A stretch of 64,000 nucleotides of DNA from Fimbriimonadaceae bacterium (GCA_026129685.1 JAHCHO010000005.1:186001-250000); one strand, 5' to 3'; shown: positions 1,068 to 56,112, numbered from the stretch's first letter. The notes: a model not told the origin generated them from the letters alone. A program made the numbers and translations.

Positions 1068-1948
1068 ACGCCCCCGTCACCGCCAAGGAATACGATCGCG
1101 TCGCCAAGCGATCGACCCGTGTCGGCGTCGTGATCAAGACGATCGTGCTCGCGATCCTGTTCGCCGGGGCGGTCAGCTTCATGGTGCCGTTCTGGGTGAT
1201 GCTCGTGATGAGCTTCAAATCGCCCGGCGAAATCGTGGTCTCGAGCGCGTGGTCCTGGCCGAAGGCGTTCACCTGGGACAACTTCAACCAGGTTCTCACC
1301 AGCCCGAACGTCAACTTCCTGCTGTTCTTCCGGAACTCGCTGTTCGTGACGACGTGCGTCACGGTGGGGGTGACGGGTTCCTCGGCGGTGGTGGCCTACG
1401 CCTTTGCTCGCCTCAAATTCGCGGGCCGCGATCGCCTGTTCCTCATCCTGCTGTCCACGATGATGCTGCCGGGGGTCGTGACGATGATCCCGAGCTACGT
1501 CATGTTCGCGAAGCTGCACTGGGTCAACACGTTCCTGCCGCTCACCGTGCCGGCGTTCTTCGGGGGCGGGGCCTTCAACATCTTCCTCCTCCGCCAGTTC
1601 TATATGGGGATTCCGCGTGAACTCGACGAGGCGGCCCTGCTTGATGGGGCGACGCACTGGCACATCTTCAGCCGTGTGATCCTGCCCCTCTCGGGCCCCG
1701 CCTTGGCCACCGTCGGCGTGTTTTGCGTGATCGGCACCTGGCGCGACTTCATGGGGCCGTTGCTCTACCTGAACGATCCCGATCTCCAGACGCTGGAACT
1801 GGGCCTGCAGACCTTCCGTGCCCTCAACGACGAGCGGTGGAACCTGCTGATGGCGGGGTCGGTCCTCGTTTCGATCCCCTTGATCCTGATCTTCTTCGTC
1901 GGACAGCGCTTCTTCGTGAAGGGCATCCAGATGACGGGGGGCAAGTAG
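1064..1948 (+). CDS. Sugar ABC transporter permease, MalG type
   Basis: This is the second permease of the CUT1 sugar importer and pairs with the upstream MalF-type subunit in the inner membrane. The 294-residue length, the N-terminal helix near residue 25-45 and the EAA loop near residue 187 (ELDEAALLDGATHWHIFSRV) are standard for the family. The start codon overlaps the previous stop (ATGA), so translation is probably coupled. The next gene, a fucosidase, begins one base after the stop, which suggests the imported sugar is a fucosylated or other plant or microbial oligosaccharide. That substrate is inferred from context only. Confidence 0.92.
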   Translation: MNAPVTAKEYDRVAKRSTRVGVVIKTIVLAILFAGAVSFMVPFWVMLVMSFKSPGEIVVSSAWSWPKAFTWDNFNQVLTSPNVNFLLFFRNSLFVTTCVTVGVTGSSAVVAYAFARLKFAGRDRLFLILLSTMMLPGVVTMIPSYVMFAKLHWVNTFLPLTVPAFFGGGAFNIFLLRQFYMGIPRELDEAALLDGATHWHIFSRVILPLSGPALATVGVFCVIGTWRDFMGPLLYLNDPDLQTLELGLQTFRALNDERWNLLMAGSVLVSIPLILIFFVGQRFFVKGIQMTGGK

Positions 1949-1949
1949 C

Positions 1950-3359
1950 GTGATCGTCTCGCATCCGTCCGGCCCCTTCGATCCCGAATGGCCTTCCTTG
2001 GAGCGGTACCGGGTGCCCGAGTGGTACCGGGACGCCAAGTTCGGCATCTTCATCCATTGGGGCGTGTACGCGGTGCCCGCCTTCGCCAACGAGTGGTATC
2101 CGCGCAACATGTACAAGCAGGGGACGCGCGAGTTCGAGCACCACGTCGCCACCTACGGAAGCCAGGCGTCGTTCGGCTACAAGGACTTCGTGCCCCGGTT
2201 CCAAGCCGAGCGTTTCGATCCGGACGCCTGGGCGGAGCTGTTCCGCGAGGCCGGGGCGCGGTACGTCGTGCCGGTGGCCGAACACCACGACGGCTTTGCG
2301 ATGTACGAGACCCGGCTCAGCCAATGGAACGCCAAAGCGATGGGTCCCTGCCGCGACGTGGTGGGGGAACTCGGGCGCGCCGTTCGGGATCGGGGCATGG
2401 CCTTTGGCGTGTCCTCGCACCGAGCCGAGCACTGGTGGTTCCTGAACGGAGGCCGGGAGTTTCCGTCCGACGTTCAGGACGCCGCCTACGCCGACTTCTA
2501 CGGTCCCGCCGCGCCGGAGGAAACCCAGCCCGACGCCGCCTTCTTGGAAGACTGGCTCGCGCGGTGCTGCGAACTGGTGGACAAGTTCCGTCCCCAGGTG
2601 TTCTGGTTCGATTGGTGGATCGAGCAGCCCGCCTTTCGTCCCTACCTGCAGCGCTTCGCCGCGTACTACTACAACCGCGCGGCGGAGTGGGGGGTCGGGG
2701 TCGCGATCAACTACAAGAACGAGGCTTACCCGGTCAAGGCGGCGGTGTTCGACGTCGAACGCGGCCAACTCGAAGAGACCCGCGAGCACTTCTGGCAGAC
2801 CGATACCGCAGTGGCGAAGAACTCCTGGTCGCACGTCGACGGTCTGGAATACAAGACGGCGGACTCGATGGTCCACGATCTGGTCGACATCGTGAGCAAG
2901 AACGGGTGCCTGCTCCTCAACATCGGACCGCGCGCGGACGGCACCATTCCGGAGGAGGACGCCGCGATCCTCCGGACGATCGGCTCGTGGCTGGCGACGA
3001 ACGGCGAGGCGGTCTACGCGACGCGGCCGTGGACGGTCTACGGCGAGGGGCCGACGCGGGTCGTCGGCGGATCGTTCCACGATACGGACCGGGCGCCCTT
3101 CACCGGGGAGGATATGCGCTTCACGACGCAAGGTGGGAACCTGTTCGTGACTTTGTTCGGGCGTCCGGAAGGCTCGGTCCTCGTGCGGAGCCTGGGACGG
3201 ACCATGCGCCTTGCCGCCCGCCCGGTCGTCGCCGTCGAATCGCTCGCGTCCAACGAGACGTTGCCGTTCGAGCAGACGGACGACGGACTCCGGTTCCCCT
3301 TCCCGGCGCTGCCGGCGGCGCCCGCATATGCGTTCCGAGTTCGGTTCGCCGAGGGTTAA
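1950..3359 (+). CDS. Alpha-L-fucosidase, GH29
   Basis: It hydrolyses terminal alpha-L-fucose by a retaining mechanism. The N-terminal catalytic domain shows family landmarks: WYRDAKFGIFIHWGVYAVPA near residues 25-45, the EHHDGFAMY segment, and PQVFWFDWW, whose Asp (about residue 221) fits the GH29 nucleophile. The last ~130 residues look like a beta-sandwich accessory domain. There is no signal peptide, so the enzyme should be cytoplasmic and act on imported oligosaccharides. It starts with GTG one base after the permease stop and is the third gene of that operon. Confidence 0.92.
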   Translation: MIVSHPSGPFDPEWPSLERYRVPEWYRDAKFGIFIHWGVYAVPAFANEWYPRNMYKQGTREFEHHVATYGSQASFGYKDFVPRFQAERFDPDAWAELFREAGARYVVPVAEHHDGFAMYETRLSQWNAKAMGPCRDVVGELGRAVRDRGMAFGVSSHRAEHWWFLNGGREFPSDVQDAAYADFYGPAAPEETQPDAAFLEDWLARCCELVDKFRPQVFWFDWWIEQPAFRPYLQRFAAYYYNRAAEWGVGVAINYKNEAYPVKAAVFDVERGQLEETREHFWQTDTAVAKNSWSHVDGLEYKTADSMVHDLVDIVSKNGCLLLNIGPRADGTIPEEDAAILRTIGSWLATNGEAVYATRPWTVYGEGPTRVVGGSFHDTDRAPFTGEDMRFTTQGGNLFVTLFGRPEGSVLVRSLGRTMRLAARPVVAVESLASNETLPFEQTDDGLRFPFPALPAAPAYAFRVRFAEG

Positions 3360-5191: not shown

Positions 5192-5794
5192 ATGACCGAA
5201 ACGAACACGCTTGAGCCTCTGGAACTGACCTGGACGCCGTCCGCCGCCGACGGAGAGCGCTTCGAGCGAATGCTCGGGGACACGCGCAAGCGCGCCTACT
5301 CGATGGCGCTTCAGTTGACGCGGAACCCGACGGACGCGGAAGACCTGATGCAGGTGACGCTCCTGAAGGCGTGGCGTGGGTTCGACGGCTATCAGCCGGG
5401 ACGGCCCTTCCTCAACTGGCTGCTTCGCATCATGCAGCGGGCCTACCTGGACTCGCGCCGACGCGGGAACCCGGTGCGCAACGCCGAGTCCCTCCATTCG
5501 ATGGTCAGCCCCCACGACGGCGACGTTCAGGAGATTCCGATCCCGGACGACTCGCCGGGTCCCGATGGGCTCTTGATGCGGTCCGAACTCGCAGAAGCGG
5601 TCACGGCGGCCCTTCGCGAGTTGCCGGAGGTCTACCGCGCGGCGATCGAGATGTGCGACCTGCAGGACATGAGCTACGCCGAGATCGCGGACGTGCAGGG
5701 CACGACGATCGGCACCGTGCGGTCGCGCATCCATCGCGGCCGGCGGATGCTGCGGGACCTCGCCATCCAACGCGGGATCGGCCCGATCCGCTGA
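5192..5794 (+). CDS. RNA polymerase ECF-type sigma factor
   Basis: This is an alternative sigma factor that directs RNA polymerase to a small regulon. The 200-residue protein has region 2 (YSMALQLTRNPTDAEDLMQV, then FLNWLLRIMQRAYLDSRRR) and region 4 with a helix-turn-helix (MSYAEIADVQGTTIGTVRSR). A promoter at 5139-5166 fixes the start at 5192. No anti-sigma gene lies beside it: upstream is a divergent asparaginase-like gene and downstream a convergent oxidoreductase. Its control is therefore either distant or transcriptional. Confidence 0.92.
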   Translation: MTETNTLEPLELTWTPSAADGERFERMLGDTRKRAYSMALQLTRNPTDAEDLMQVTLLKAWRGFDGYQPGRPFLNWLLRIMQRAYLDSRRRGNPVRNAESLHSMVSPHDGDVQEIPIPDDSPGPDGLLMRSELAEAVTAALRELPEVYRAAIEMCDLQDMSYAEIADVQGTTIGTVRSRIHRGRRMLRDLAIQRGIGPIR

Positions 5795-50479: not shown

Positions 50480-52141
50480 ATGACCCCCGACGAACGCCGA
50501 CGAAGCCTCCAGATTCTCGATCGGCTGGCCGACGCCGCGCCCCCCGACAACGCCAAGCTGGCGAACTACGTCGCCGCCCTGCGCGACGAACTCGCCCGCG
50601 AGGACCTGGAGAACGAGGAGAAGGCCAAACTGCTCGCCGAGTACGAAGCGGCCTACCAGAAACTCACCGCACCCGCCAACCGGATGGGTGTGTTCCTCGA
50701 GCCGATGGCGGGCGGCCTCGCCCTCATCGCCGTTGGCGATACCGAGTTCCTTGCGCAGATCGACCCAACCCTCGACCCGGAGACGCTCCAGCGGGGCGAT
50801 CGGGTGTACGTGAACGACGCCTACGCGGTGGTCGGCCGCCTTGACCCCCACCCCGGCGGCGCCCTGCTGAAGGTTGCGGAGGCCTATGGCGACGGGCGCC
50901 TGCGAATCGGCTCCGAGGGCCCTTCGACGGACGGCGGGCGCATCGTTCTTCGCGCCAAGATCCTCCATGAAAAGAAGCTGGAGACGGGCGACCTCGTCCG
51001 CGTCGAGCCGACCGGCCGCGTCGCCGTCGAGTCGTTCGAGCAGAAGGAGAACCGCGACTACTTCTTCGAGGAGGTGCCCGAAATCCCCTGGGAGAAGATC
51101 GGCGGCCAGGACGAGGCCATCCGCCTCATCAAGGACACGATCGAGAAGCCCCTCCTCTACCCGGAGATCTACCAACGCTTCGAGAAGAAGCCGATCAAGG
51201 GCATGCTCCTGTACGGTCCCCCGGGATGCGGCAAGACCCTCATCGGCAAGGCGACCGCCTACAACCTCACCCAGGAGTACTCCAAGCGGGTCGGGCACAC
51301 CGTGAAGGAGTACTTCATGTACATCAGCGGGCCGAAGATCCTCAACATGTGGCTCGGCGAGACCGAGCGCATGGTGCGGGACATCTTCCGCATCGCCCGC
51401 GAAAAGGCCAAGGAAGGGCGGCTCGTGTTCATCTTTATGGACGAGGCGGAATCCGTGCTGCGAACGCGATCCTCCGGCCGATACCTCAACATCAGCAACA
51501 CGGTGGTGCCCCAGTTCTGTGCCGAACTCGACGGGCTCGTGTCGCTCGAGAACGTCGTGCTGATGCTCACCTCGAACCGCCCCGACTACATCGACCCGGC
51601 CGTGCTTCGGCCCGAGCGGATCGATCGCAAGGTCAAGGTCAACCGCCCCGATCGTGCCGCCACCGCCCAGATCCTCGGCATCTACCTGCACGCGGGCATC
51701 CCCCTCGACCCCGACGCCCTCGCCGAGTTCGACGGCGACGTGGACGGGACGCGGAAGAGGCTGGTCGAGGCCCTCACCGAGAAGCTCTGGTCGCACAAGC
51801 CGGAGTACCGCTTTCTCAAGGTGATGCTGCGCAACGGCTCGACCGAGACGCTGTACCGGTCCGACCTCGCGAGCGGCGCCCTCCTCAAGTCCATCGTGGA
51901 CCGCGCGAAGGACTTCGCGATCGAACGCGCCATCCGGGAGCCGTCGGTGCCCCACGGGGTCGGCCTGGCCGACCTCGAGCGGGCGGTGGACTCCGAGTAC
52001 CGCGAAAGCGAGATCTTCCCGAAGACCGACACCCAGGAGGACTGGCTCAAACTGCTCGACTACGAGCCGGAGAACGTCGCCGCCGTTCGACCGATCCTGC
52101 GCAACCGGGGCGAGGAGATCGCCCGAAAGAACATCGTGTGA
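50480..52141 (+). CDS. Proteasome-associated AAA+ ring ATPase (ARC/Mpa-like)
   Basis: This hexameric unfoldase of 553 residues resembles the bacterial proteasomal ATPase. An N-terminal coiled-coil-like helix (about 45-75, RDELAREDLENEEKAKLLAE) is followed by two OB-type barrels (about 80-195). The AAA module has Walker A at LYGPPGCGKTLIGKATAYN, Walker B at RLVFIFMDEAESVL, and sensor/Arg finger in LTSNRPDYIDPAVLRPERID. The C-terminus ends EIARKNIV, without the GQYL-type tail that opens the 20S gate in Mpa. No proteasome, Pup or ligase genes are adjacent. Confidence 0.9.
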   Translation: MTPDERRRSLQILDRLADAAPPDNAKLANYVAALRDELAREDLENEEKAKLLAEYEAAYQKLTAPANRMGVFLEPMAGGLALIAVGDTEFLAQIDPTLDPETLQRGDRVYVNDAYAVVGRLDPHPGGALLKVAEAYGDGRLRIGSEGPSTDGGRIVLRAKILHEKKLETGDLVRVEPTGRVAVESFEQKENRDYFFEEVPEIPWEKIGGQDEAIRLIKDTIEKPLLYPEIYQRFEKKPIKGMLLYGPPGCGKTLIGKATAYNLTQEYSKRVGHTVKEYFMYISGPKILNMWLGETERMVRDIFRIAREKAKEGRLVFIFMDEAESVLRTRSSGRYLNISNTVVPQFCAELDGLVSLENVVLMLTSNRPDYIDPAVLRPERIDRKVKVNRPDRAATAQILGIYLHAGIPLDPDALAEFDGDVDGTRKRLVEALTEKLWSHKPEYRFLKVMLRNGSTETLYRSDLASGALLKSIVDRAKDFAIERAIREPSVPHGVGLADLERAVDSEYRESEIFPKTDTQEDWLKLLDYEPENVAAVRPILRNRGEEIARKNIV

Positions 52142-53348: not shown

Positions 53349-53370
53349 AAGGGAGGAAGGCGCAACCTCC

Positions 53371-53466
53371 CTGTCACTCTGAGCGAAGCGAAGAGTCCCG
53401 AAAGGCCCTCTTACGGAGCGAAGCAAGAGTCCGGAAAGGTCCTGTCCTACCGAGCGAAGCGAAGGC
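53371..53466. repeat. Dispersed repeat family, three degenerate half units
   Basis: Left-arm copies CTGTCACTCTGAGCGAAGCG (53371), GGAGCGAAGCAAGAGTCCG (about 53414) and CCTGTCCTACCGAGCGAAGCG (53441, given in part) lie in direct orientation. Right arms are missing. They belong to the family at 28.7, 36.7 and 56.2 kb. Confidence 0.75.
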
Positions 53467-53489
53467 CAAGCAACCGTCGCCATCCCCGC

Positions 53490-54083
53490 CTACGGCGGAG
53501 AACTTGAAACGGGCGCCTTGTGCGCCCAAGTCCGGTACTCGGCCAGCAAACTGCTGATCGTGACCTCCTCCTTGTGGTACCAGAACTTGCGGAGGCCGAT
53601 CTCGCGCAAGAGGGCCTGGTCCTTCTGAAGGCCGCTCGCGAGCGCCGTGTAGCGCGTCTTCTCGTCGTAGCGGGTTTTCCGGGCCCCGTCGAACTCCCAG
53701 GCGATCTCCATCATGCGCGGCAAGTAGACCGCAACCTTGCCCTCATAGCGGTGATAGGTGATCGGCAACATCGCCTTCTCACCCACCGCTGACTCTGTCT
53801 GAACCTCCAGACAGAAGTGCCTCTCATGGGAGAGAACGTTCTTGATCGAAAGAACGCGCCAGCCCCGCAATCGCGGACGCACGATGCGATCCACGACCGC
53901 TAACGTCGTCTGCTGGTCGAGCGGGCGGTCGCCGTTCAGGAGCGTAAGCCCGGGCAAATCGCCCGATCCGAACAGCGCGCGGGTGGTCTCCAACCCGATC
54001 GCCTCCTCGTCGTCCGAACGGGCCGGAGTCGCTGAGGAAGGGAACAAGAGCATGCCGGCACAGAGAAGGTGCGCTTCCCTCAT
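53490..54083 (-). CDS. Exported protein of unknown family, paralogue B
   Basis: This 197-residue protein has a signal peptide (REAHLLCAGMLLFPSSATPA) and no known domain. It aligns with the upstream neighbour along its length: VDRIVRPRLRGWRV, PITYHRYEGKVAVYLPRMME, and the near-identical end LREIGLRKFWYHKEEVTISS then LLAEYRTWAH. The invariant, aromatic and charged C-terminal block suggests a binding or catalytic site. It overlaps the paralogue by ATGA and is the last gene of the 56.1-53.5 kb operon. The function is unknown. Confidence 0.75.
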   Translation of the reverse strand: MREAHLLCAGMLLFPSSATPARSDDEEAIGLETTRALFGSGDLPGLTLLNGDRPLDQQTTLAVVDRIVRPRLRGWRVLSIKNVLSHERHFCLEVQTESAVGEKAMLPITYHRYEGKVAVYLPRMMEIAWEFDGARKTRYDEKTRYTALASGLQKDQALLREIGLRKFWYHKEEVTISSLLAEYRTWAHKAPVSSSPP

Positions 54084-54703
54084 GACCCTCTCTCTTGTCC
54101 GGACTTTCCAGGTGTTCTGTGCGCCCGGGTCCGGTACTCGGACAGCAAACTACTGATCGTGACTTCCTCTTTGTGGTACCAGAACTTGCGAAGCCCGATC
54201 TCCCTCAGGATGCCCTGGTCCTTCTGAAGTCCGTTGGCAACAGCCCAATACACGGCCTTCAGGTCGGTCCTGTTGTTTCGAGCACCCTCGAACTCCCAGG
54301 CGATCTCCATCATCCGGGGCAGGAAGACGGCCACACCTCCACGATACCGATGAAAGTTGATCGTCAACGACGCTCGCTCGCCGCTCCGAGAAACAACCTT
54401 AAGGATGGTGGCAAAGCCGTGGGTGGTCTGGTTGGCGACGGTCAGGTCCTCTACTTTCCAGCCATGAAAGCGAGGCTTCACGATCCGGTCCATAACATCT
54501 TTCGCGATGCGGGGGTCCGCCTCTTGCACCGTGCGCTCAAGAAGTATCAGGCCCTTTGACTCGCCCGTGCCGAACAACGACCTCGCCACATCGGCCCCGA
54601 CCTTCTCCTCTCCTTCCGTTCCAGCGAAAACTTGGAACGTGATCAAGAGAGTGGCGGCCAGGACGAAAACGGCCAGAAACAACCGGGCGTGTCGTCGCGC
54701 CAT
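54080..54703 (-). CDS. Exported protein of unknown family, paralogue A
   Basis: This 207-residue protein has an N-terminal signal or anchor helix (ARLFLAVFVLAATLLITFQVF) and a domain shared with paralogue B. The shared parts are IARSLFG-like start (VARSLFGTGESKGLILLE), VMDRIVKPRFHGWKV, FHRYRGGVAVFLPRMMEIAW and the end GLRKFWYHKEEVTISSLLSE. No catalytic motif is recognised. ATG at 54703 overlaps the stop of the Cys-rich gene (TGATG); an in-frame GTG at 54712 is possible. The tandem pair looks like a recent duplication, because even the DNA is similar at the 3' ends. Confidence 0.75.
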   Translation of the reverse strand: MARRHARLFLAVFVLAATLLITFQVFAGTEGEEKVGADVARSLFGTGESKGLILLERTVQEADPRIAKDVMDRIVKPRFHGWKVEDLTVANQTTHGFATILKVVSRSGERASLTINFHRYRGGVAVFLPRMMEIAWEFEGARNNRTDLKAVYWAVANGLQKDQGILREIGLRKFWYHKEEVTISSLLSEYRTRAHRTPGKSGQERGS

Positions 54704-55002
54704 CAGCCCCACGGGTTGTCTGGGGCGCTGGGGCAGGTCCGCTTTGTGACGTCGCAGGACTCGTCGAGATGCGGATAACGCCAGTCGAAGTAGGTTTGAG
54801 AGTTAAAGCAACGCCACGTCCAGACCTTGCAGCAGTTGGTCGTGCCGCCCGAGACGTAGGTGAAGCAGTTGTCGCTGTGAAAAACCCGCAAGGGGCAGTC
54901 GGGCGGGGTCGGGTCGCTGACGCAAAGAAGGGCGTAGGCGGCGCCGGAAAGCACGACGCTCGAGACGATCGAAGCCAATGCGAGGCGAAGGACGCGTTTT
55001 AT
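54703..55002 (-). CDS. Small secreted protein with eight cysteines, probable AUA start
   Basis: This 99-residue product has a signal peptide (KRVLRLALASIVSSVVLSGA, cleavage near AYA). The mature part of about 74 residues holds eight Cys, including an adjacent CC pair (TTNCCKVWTWRC) and CPSAPDNPWG at the end, so it could form four disulfides. No ATG, GTG or TTG is well placed. AGGAG lies eight bases before an ATA at 55002, and that ATA overlaps the pilin stop as ATAA, matching the ATGA/GTGA pattern of the region. The role is unknown. The neighbouring thioredoxin-fold gene suggests oxidative folding. Confidence 0.65.
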   Translation of the reverse strand: MKRVLRLALASIVSSVVLSGAAYALLCVSDPTPPDCPLRVFHSDNCFTYVSGGTTNCCKVWTWRCFNSQTYFDWRYPHLDESCDVTKRTCPSAPDNPWG

Positions 55003-55565
55003 GGTTGGGTCTCCTGACAATCCCACCAGTCGGGATTGAGAACGAACCCGGGGGCGGTGCGTTGGACGACCTGGCCGCCGAGGGTCAGGCCGTAGGCGTG
55101 GAACCGGGTGCCGGGGGGCGCGTTCTCCGCGCTCCGGTCCAAGAACGTGTAGTCGGCGACGATCACCGAGTTTGCGCGACACTTGTCGTTGTGGCGCTTC
55201 CACCCGGCGGTCAGGCTAGAGGTCGTGCTCGGGTCGGGTACGAGATAGTAGTACCAACCGAGGCCGGGAGTGGGTCCGGGTTGCGGTGGAAAGAGGTTCT
55301 TCTTAGCGAGGAAGTCCATGTACCAGTCCGCCGTCGGCAAGCCGAGGGCGATCAGGTCGCCGACCGTTCCGGTCGCTTCCGTCTCGTCGCGGTACATCGC
55401 GATGGCGAGGTGGATCTGCCGAAGGTTGGACATTGTGACCGCGACCTTCGACTGCTTCTTGACCCCTCCGAACACGGAAAGCAGGATGCACGCCAGGATC
55501 GCCGCGATCACCGCGACGATGAGGACCTCGATCAACGTCACCGCTCGGTGCAAACGATGCGTCAC
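54999..55565 (-). CDS. Pseudopilin-like protein (type IV pilin signal)
   Basis: This 188-residue protein has a class III leader: MTHRLHRA then VTLIEVLIVAVIAAILACIL. Glu is at +5, but Ala stands where Gly is usual at -1, so cleavage may be inefficient or use a variant prepilin peptidase. The soluble part (SNLRQIHLAIAMYRDETEAT, then GLPTADWYMDFLAKKNLF) resembles GspG/DUF1559-type pseudopilins. It would be inserted in the inner membrane and perhaps assembled. GTG overlaps the thioredoxin-fold gene's stop (GTGA), and the next gene overlaps its TAA. Confidence 0.8.
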   Translation of the reverse strand: MTHRLHRAVTLIEVLIVAVIAAILACILLSVFGGVKKQSKVAVTMSNLRQIHLAIAMYRDETEATGTVGDLIALGLPTADWYMDFLAKKNLFPPQPGPTPGLGWYYYLVPDPSTTSSLTAGWKRHNDKCRANSVIVADYTFLDRSAENAPPGTRFHAYGLTLGGQVVQRTAPGFVLNPDWWDCQETQP

Positions 55566-56065
55566 CGGAGAAAACCCTCCGCCCGGGGGTTATGACCCGA
55601 GGCTCGCCGAACCTGCAAAGCAGGGGAAACCTCATAGTAGCGCGGCGCCTGGGTCACGTTCAGTCGCTCGTGCAAACGGCCCGAATGGTCGACGAAGACT
55701 TGGTAACGTCGCGGGTCAAGGTCCCGAACAGGGGGATCGTAACCGGCTTTGGGCACGTACGCGACGATGACTGAGCCGAACCTAGGTGACTCCGACCCCG
55801 GGCGAAACTGATGGGCGCTGCACGTAGTGCAATCTCCCAAGGCCACGAAGAGCGTTGGCGACGCAAGGTGATCCGTCTCTTCACCGTTGCTTAGGAACCT
55901 ACGAACGTCAACGTCTTGTCCGTCCTGCAGGTTCATTGACGAGACAATGCTCGGAAACCGCTCAGGCGCGTGACTCGAATCCGCTGTCACGTGCCGCACA
56001 ATGCCCGTGATGGCGACCAAAGTCGCTGCCGCGTATAGTAGTAACTCCAATTGCTTCGTGCCCAA
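55562..56065 (-). CDS. Membrane-anchored thioredoxin-fold protein (CTTC)
   Basis: This 167-residue protein has an N-terminal membrane helix (LELLLYAAATLVAITGIV) and an extracytoplasmic domain. TLFVALGDCTTCSAHQFR has a CxxC after a beta strand, RRYQVFVDHSGRLHERLNVT matches the second half of a thioredoxin-like/redoxin fold, and QAPRYYEV could supply the cis-Pro. A thiol-disulfide or TlpA-like redox role is inferred. TTG at 56065 follows GGGAG by seven bases. It is first in the operon behind the consensus promoter. Confidence 0.7.
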   Translation of the reverse strand: MGTKQLELLLYAAATLVAITGIVRHVTADSSHAPERFPSIVSSMNLQDGQDVDVRRFLSNGEETDHLASPTLFVALGDCTTCSAHQFRPGSESPRFGSVIVAYVPKAGYDPPVRDLDPRRYQVFVDHSGRLHERLNVTQAPRYYEVSPALQVRRASGHNPRAEGFLR

Positions 56066-56083
56066 TGGATAACTCCCAGGAGG

Positions 56084-56112
56084 ATTATAGCGCTGAAGCG
56101 ACCCATTGTCAA
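56084..56112 (-). promoter_or_regulatory. Perfect consensus sigma-70 promoter of the five-gene operon
   Basis: On the minus strand TTGACA (56107-56112) and TATAAT (56084-56089) are separated by exactly 17 bases. Transcription should start near 56077, about twelve bases before the TTG start at 56065, leaving room for the GGGAG ribosome site. The gap 56066-56435 otherwise contains one dispersed repeat unit. Confidence 0.85.

Follow-up and report, generated by a model that had tools for sequence, protein, structure and literature searches.

Two described systems come closest to the locus analyzed here. In Bacillus, the filament subunit ComGC of the ComG transformation pseudopilus needs the thiol-disulfide oxidoreductases BdbD and BdbC for its disulfide (PMC8262900), and the sublancin operon has the gene order sunA-sunT-bdbA-sunS-bdbB (PMC4336743). 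These are the nearest precedents for a cassette in which a redoxin, a type IV pilin, a secreted Cys-rich protein and an anchored, likely NTF2-like protein (hereafter DUF4) are encoded in this order, and neither of them has this gene set. What the cassette has in common with ComG and BdbDC is a type IV filament subunit accompanied by thiol-disulfide oxidoreductase activity, which in the cassette is predicted from sequence. It differs in that the redoxin gene sits in the pilin's own operon, where the two would be translationally coupled, in the addition of the separate secreted Cys-rich protein and DUF4, and in the lack of an ATPase, a polytopic protein or any link to competence; no comGA-type ATPase or comGB-type protein was found in the operon, and no neighboring family recurs widely. 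Like the sublancin operon, the cassette encodes a small exported product that contains Cys, with the gene of a dedicated thiol-disulfide oxidoreductase next to it. Here, however, there is no peptidase-containing ABC exporter or glycosyltransferase, the signal peptide is of the Sec type, a pilin is encoded nearby, and the product is a mature protein of about 75–110 residues with about four or more predicted disulfides. A peptidase-containing ABC exporter was not found as a conserved neighbor of the cassette, and an ABC ATPase family occurs at only 4 loci.

Two of the cassette families can also be placed against known proteins. Fimbriimonas ginsengisoli encodes 79 PulG/GspG-like pseudopilins, a group expanded in Fimbriimonadia (PMC4072686), and the cassette pilin belongs to the same prepilin-motif class, whereas ordinary pilin loci are without the redoxin and DUF4, and cassette pilins carry a characteristic predicted disulfide and a C-terminal WW motif. 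The redoxin has in common with DsbE/CcmG and mycobacterial DsbF, its best PDB sequence matches, an anchored thioredoxin fold with CxxC, but it is very divergent, the middle residues of its GxCxxC motif vary, and no cytochrome c maturation genes recur beside it. A literature search on this gene set found nothing; the preliminary description had called the locus an operon of unfamiliar composition.

The operon in the window

The window is the whole stretch of DNA that was analyzed, 64,000 nucleotides from a Fimbriimonadaceae bacterium (GCA_026129685.1, JAHCHO010000005.1:186001-250000). On its minus strand, reading frames follow one another without gaps from the redoxin at 56065 down to 53490, and all five of the tightly packed genes that the preliminary description had reported were found. 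The first, g1 (55562..56065), encodes the membrane-anchored thioredoxin-fold redoxin with a CTTC motif (167 aa, TTG start), and g2 (54999..55565) encodes a type IV pilin-like protein or pseudopilin of 188 aa whose GTG start overlaps the g1 stop. The secreted Cys-rich protein, 99 aa with eight Cys, is encoded by g3 (54703..55002), with an ATA start overlapping the g2 stop and homologues at the same position in relatives. Then come g4 (54080..54703), encoding the membrane-anchored DUF4 protein (207 aa), and g5 (53490..54083), its tandem paralogue with a signal-peptide-like N-terminus. The overlaps are GTGA (g1/g2), ATAA (g2/g3), TGATG (g3/g4) and ATGA (g4/g5).

The 99-residue, eight-Cys protein is thus present as a reading frame, but reading it in this way requires a start codon other than ATG, as there is no ATG for g3 in the window. 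Its start is most likely the ATA at 55002, with an AGGAG Shine-Dalgarno-like site 8 nt before it (55011..55015, minus strand), or else would be a TTG further upstream. Relatives have ATG at this point, and the ATA (within window 54999-55015) may have arisen by recent mutation or be a start codon of a rare kind. The start of g4 is most likely the ATG at 54703.

Since g4 and g5 are 53% identical across their whole length, we read them as one duplicated gene, with g5 being a local duplication; they are the sole two close copies in the genome, and the dN/dS between them is 0.38. The block FWYHKEEVTISSLL, described earlier as ending both paralogues, is present in each, but about 15–25 further residues come after it. 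Every product had been predicted to be exported or anchored; of the two paralogues, g5 by eye looks like a signal-peptide protein and is not clearly anchored.

Two features of the surroundings can be mentioned. A repeat-rich stretch (TTCGCTTCGCTC-like) downstream of the operon (window 53360-53480) resembles a kind of intergenic repeat that is widespread. Within a few kb of the cassette there is a gene for a proteasome-type AAA ATPase (window 50480-52141), as there also is at L121, L127, L131 and L134, which may reflect a shared insertion neighborhood or chance.

Distribution, synteny and selection across Armatimonadota

Single-sequence searches with a paralogue or the Cys-rich protein gave almost no matches among 61 genomes (a single paralogue found only distant matches in 2 of 60 relatives), and profiles were required. 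A weak match to the Cys-rich protein led to a genome, G015, that has the genes for the redoxin, the pilin, the Cys-rich protein and a paralogue in the same order; the redoxin frame is broken in that draft contig. Family profiles were built stepwise starting from this locus. With the DUF4 profile, 76 of the 113 genomes in the class gave members (E 0.01), and with a larger version 90 of the 291 in the phylum (E 1e-5), often with several matches per genome and up to nine. Weak DUF4 matches (e.g., G000:C12), which may be anchored proteins of a generic kind with a similar shape, were left out of the cassette counts.

Dozens of genomes of Fimbriimonadia carry the cassette with gene order and strand unchanged, and it is found likewise in further Armatimonadota classes, so that the genes are syntenic in many relatives, the check that the preliminary description had asked for. 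We compared 80 regions around DUF4 matches, the window and four loci found before these, using the DUF4, pilin and redoxin profiles. A pilin lies upstream on the same strand for 86 of 99 DUF4 ORFs, and both redoxin and pilin for 57 of 99; for about 60 of them the gap between pilin and DUF4 holds a Cys-rich ORF with a signal peptide. Among the 77 first-DUF4 cassettes with usable flanks, all four genes are present in 50, the redoxin is not detected in 12, 6 keep the redoxin without the Cys-rich gene, and 9 consist of pilin and DUF4 only. The redoxin is more often present together with the Cys-rich gene in these 77 cassettes (odds ratio 6.25, p = 0.003, uncorrected for relatedness). In other classes of the phylum, each of eight loci has a pilin, a Cys-rich ORF (10–17 Cys) and DUF4, with a redoxin match in 6/8. 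As a control, 75 ordinary-pilin loci, mostly from Verrucomicrobia, Planctomycetes and Armatimonadota and collected with a five-member pilin alignment, gave no redoxin and no DUF4 match; five cassette loci in the same list matched both.

Because copies persist without its gene, the Cys-rich protein is not indispensable to the cassette, and these same copies show that, of the two proposed clients, the pilin is more constant. An overlap of the redoxin and pilin genes is seen in 86% of cases; in 23 of 56 it measures exactly 4 nt, and it is from these 4-nt overlaps that we read a probable translational coupling of the two.

No fifth cassette gene is conserved, and the flanks share only a few housekeeping genes. 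Given that no flanking family recurs, the unit is one of four genes without a fixed location, with surroundings that differ from copy to copy. The five-gene set proposed earlier is therefore conserved together as four genes, its second paralogue being only a local duplication. In the congener G002, lexA and a transporter are found instead upstream of sucD and the cassette is absent at that site, a difference for which rearrangement and insertion are indistinguishable.

DUF4 genes stand in tandem in the window (two), in G033 (two) and in G011, where four lie in a row (L120, G011:C1:898500-906500). Other arrangements include three successive cassettes in L104 (G027:C28) and, in L082 (G076:C77), a repeated pairing of pilin and DUF4 with neither a Cys-rich nor a redoxin gene. 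A complete cassette is carried by G063 (L134). In L123 (G044:C3:108200-114800), an 11-Cys ORF (5270-5767, minus strand) lies upstream of a redoxin-pilin-DUF4 cassette that is without the usual Cys-rich gene.

Three related cassette pairs gave measurable dN/dS values of 0.04–0.23 for all four genes, which are thus under purifying selection, and constraint on the Cys-rich gene is among the strongest (0.06–0.10 where measurable, dS being saturated in one pair). The arrangement is far beyond chance because it recurs across the phylum with all four genes under purifying selection, and it is a real, previously undescribed four-gene unit repeated across a little-studied phylum. An orphan or chance operon is ruled out by the recurring synteny, and arms-race evolution of the Cys-rich protein finds no support in its dN/dS of up to 0.10 where measurable.

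Along some cassettes the value of dS changes abruptly between pilin and DUF4, dropping from 2.9 to 0.12 for L118 and L119 and rising from 0.44 to 1.14 for L081 and L083, so that recombination probably swaps cassette segments. That the 3' half can recombine separately, as in L118/L119, would suit a reading in which the four genes have no joint function and surface-protein genes are held together merely through co-regulation, as would the variable surroundings and the absence of single genes from some copies. Such a reading is distinctly unlikely, considering that gene order is fixed and starts overlap despite great divergence and no fixed neighbors.

Paired cysteines and the folds of the four proteins

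Seven Cys are near-invariant in the aligned Cys-rich family (window C27, C36, C46, C57, C65, C83, and C90). An eighth core Cys takes one of three alternative places, after C46, after C57 (C58 in the window) or three residues before C27, and its presence after C46 is anticorrelated with that after C57 (phi −0.58). Extra Cys arrive paired: column 67 of the alignment goes with column 146 (phi 0.77), and column 113 with column 178 (phi 0.69). The total is even in 55 of 62 proteins (55:7). Pilin Cys counts are also mostly even (40 of 50, 40:10); alignment column 144 pairs with column 76 or with column 227, never with both, in 19 cases each, and in four pilins including that of the window a Cys129/Cys183 pair, always together, replaces the other pairs. 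DUF4 (45:41) and the redoxin (21:17), which serve as internal controls, have no parity bias. Even counts, positional swapping and paired gain are the pattern that disulfides produce, and the sequences thus strongly suggest disulfides in both the Cys-rich protein and the pilin, the pilin being itself a probable disulfide substrate.

An AlphaFold model of the Cys-rich protein (pLDDT 76 overall, about 80–90 in the core) contains a three-stranded sheet (39–51, 54–65, 71–78), and the strand limits, rather than coordinates, would place positions 47 and 58 opposite each other on the first hairpin. The Cys-rich proteins begin with Sec-type signal peptides, and the family keeps its size and Cys core constant. 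Curated families (Pfam and NCBIfam, including defensin-like ones) gave only isolated weak matches in one or two of 62 members and no toxin family match. The PDB gave no sequence or fold match, with no credible Foldseek match to the model, and no similar phage proteins were found.

A high and even Cys number could also indicate metal ligands, and with a redoxin adjoining one can imagine a surface device in which the Cys-rich protein, held by the pilin, carries electrons or metal, and the redoxin is its redox partner instead of a folding catalyst. Such a device seems highly improbable: the window protein has no CxxCH haem motif, the extra Cys lie in distant pairs and not in clustered ligand sets, and the same Cys pairing in the pilin is a better fit to disulfides. 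A second possibility is that the redoxin matures the Cys-rich protein as a secreted effector of bacteriocin-like type, exported by a pseudopilus, in which case the NTF2-like protein would confer immunity and its tandem copies extra immunity. Both proteins are highly divergent between copies (mean identity 25% for Cys-rich and 23% for DUF4), several copies per genome and the DUF4 arrays noted above occur, and BdbB matures sublancin in the sublancin operon (PMC4336743). This role in antagonism is nonetheless unlikely, as pilin-DUF4 pairs exist without any Cys-rich gene, and the Cys-rich protein combines a low dN/dS between close relatives with a constant size and Cys core and no match to a toxin family.

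The identification of g2 as a pseudopilin proved correct, with PF07963 (N_methyl) and TIGR02532 both above cut-off. N_methyl matches 47 of 50 pilin relatives (DUF1559 also 3 of 50), and the prepilin motif has E5 in 50/50 and G or A at −1 in 49/50, so the cleavage motif and the hydrophobic N-terminal helix of type IV filament pilins are both present. The genome encodes several type IV filament ATPases, none of them in the cassette, and we propose that a host PilB/GspE ATPase would assemble the filament.

The anchored thioredoxin-fold protein of the preliminary description is likewise borne out. A PDB search with its family profile found DsbF/DsbE/CcmG (4e-5 to 2e-4), and the CxxC, nearly invariant among relatives, together with this similarity places it in the thioredoxin family; Pfam Redoxin is matched by 6/38 relatives, and a Pro-Arg after the fold core resembles, by eye, the cis-Pro loop. 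Oxidation by the redoxin is plausible with a VKOR encoded in the genome, and a role as reductase or isomerase is possible because the family also resembles the reductive DsbE/CcmG. Outside the class, the cassette redoxin of L197 (G180:C13:31000-38000; 1936-2574, plus strand) is without CxxC, and the adjoining Cys-rich ORF has 16 Cys.

The confident AlphaFold model of DUF4 (pLDDT 88) has an alpha-beta domain preceded by a long helix at the N-terminus. Among its Foldseek matches the NTF2-like ones are the most plausible, namely the PBP5 N-domain (6g0k, prob 1.00, TM 0.34), RsgI9 NTF2 (7sjy), MTB12 and the CaMKII hub, all at E > 0.02; the top rank goes to a nucleotidyltransferase that superposes poorly. 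The profile has weak matches to designed and putative NTF2. From the model, DUF4 is likely NTF2-like. NTF2-like domains usually serve binding or oligomerisation. Pfam and NCBIfam hold no family for DUF4 proteins, the pilin being the only window protein with a meaningful match; the paralogues matched no known unrelated sequence family, although such a match had been named in advance as grounds for rejection, and no plasmid proteins similar to g4 were found.

A candidate disulfide-matured filament module

We give an even chance to the four-gene cassette, with no fixed location, serving a disulfide-matured type IV filament (pseudopilus) module. This builds on the gene order, the family identities, the prepilin site, the Cys pairing, purifying selection, and the pilus ATPases and VKOR of the genome. 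Most likely, the redoxin would oxidise the pilin and the Cys-rich protein after export to yield a surface or pseudopilus-tip module. The pilin would reach the inner membrane via its prepilin signal and the Cys-rich protein would be exported by Sec, after which the anchored DsbE/DsbF-like redoxin would give the pilin a single disulfide and the Cys-rich protein four to six, and be recharged by the host VKOR. The anchored NTF2-like protein may bind the pilin or the Cys-rich protein in a complex, as a membrane-side partner or chaperone. Mature pilin would then enter existing type IV pilus or T2SS-like machinery as a minor subunit and present the Cys-rich protein at the surface, or help release it. 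We infer that the purpose is most likely adhesion or ligand binding. Facts against this module are the copies that have no Cys-rich gene (6 with a redoxin, 9 of pilin and DUF4 only), the 12 copies with a Cys-rich gene and no detected redoxin, the L197 redoxin, and the resemblance of the redoxin family to reductive DsbE/CcmG.

The earlier suggestion of a dedicated exported device with disulfide maturation is strongly supported by the synteny, the even Cys counts and the co-presence of redoxin and Cys-rich genes, but for a secretion device as such the cassette offers neither an export ATPase nor a channel. A role in DNA uptake, with the pilin as a competence-type minor pilin served by disulfide catalysts, would have a precedent in the thiol oxidoreductases that act on ComGC (PMC8262900). 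It is very unlikely here, as many divergent copies per genome and a patchy presence are unlike a core competence gene. We know of no competence counterpart of the Cys-rich partner.

More tentatively than for the filament module itself, and at less than an even chance, the cassettes may form a hitherto undescribed, phylum-wide class of self-contained surface apparatus, in which a new disulfide fold is shown or secreted by a dedicated disulfide-locked pseudopilin, with many diversified copies per genome. The cassette adds a Cys-rich family without database match and an NTF2-looking anchored family, both spread through the phylum. It also gives some of the unexplained excess of pseudopilins in Fimbriimonadia a defined set of partners and a testable biochemical role, and it suggests that a type IV filament subunit can be supplied with a disulfide catalyst of its own.
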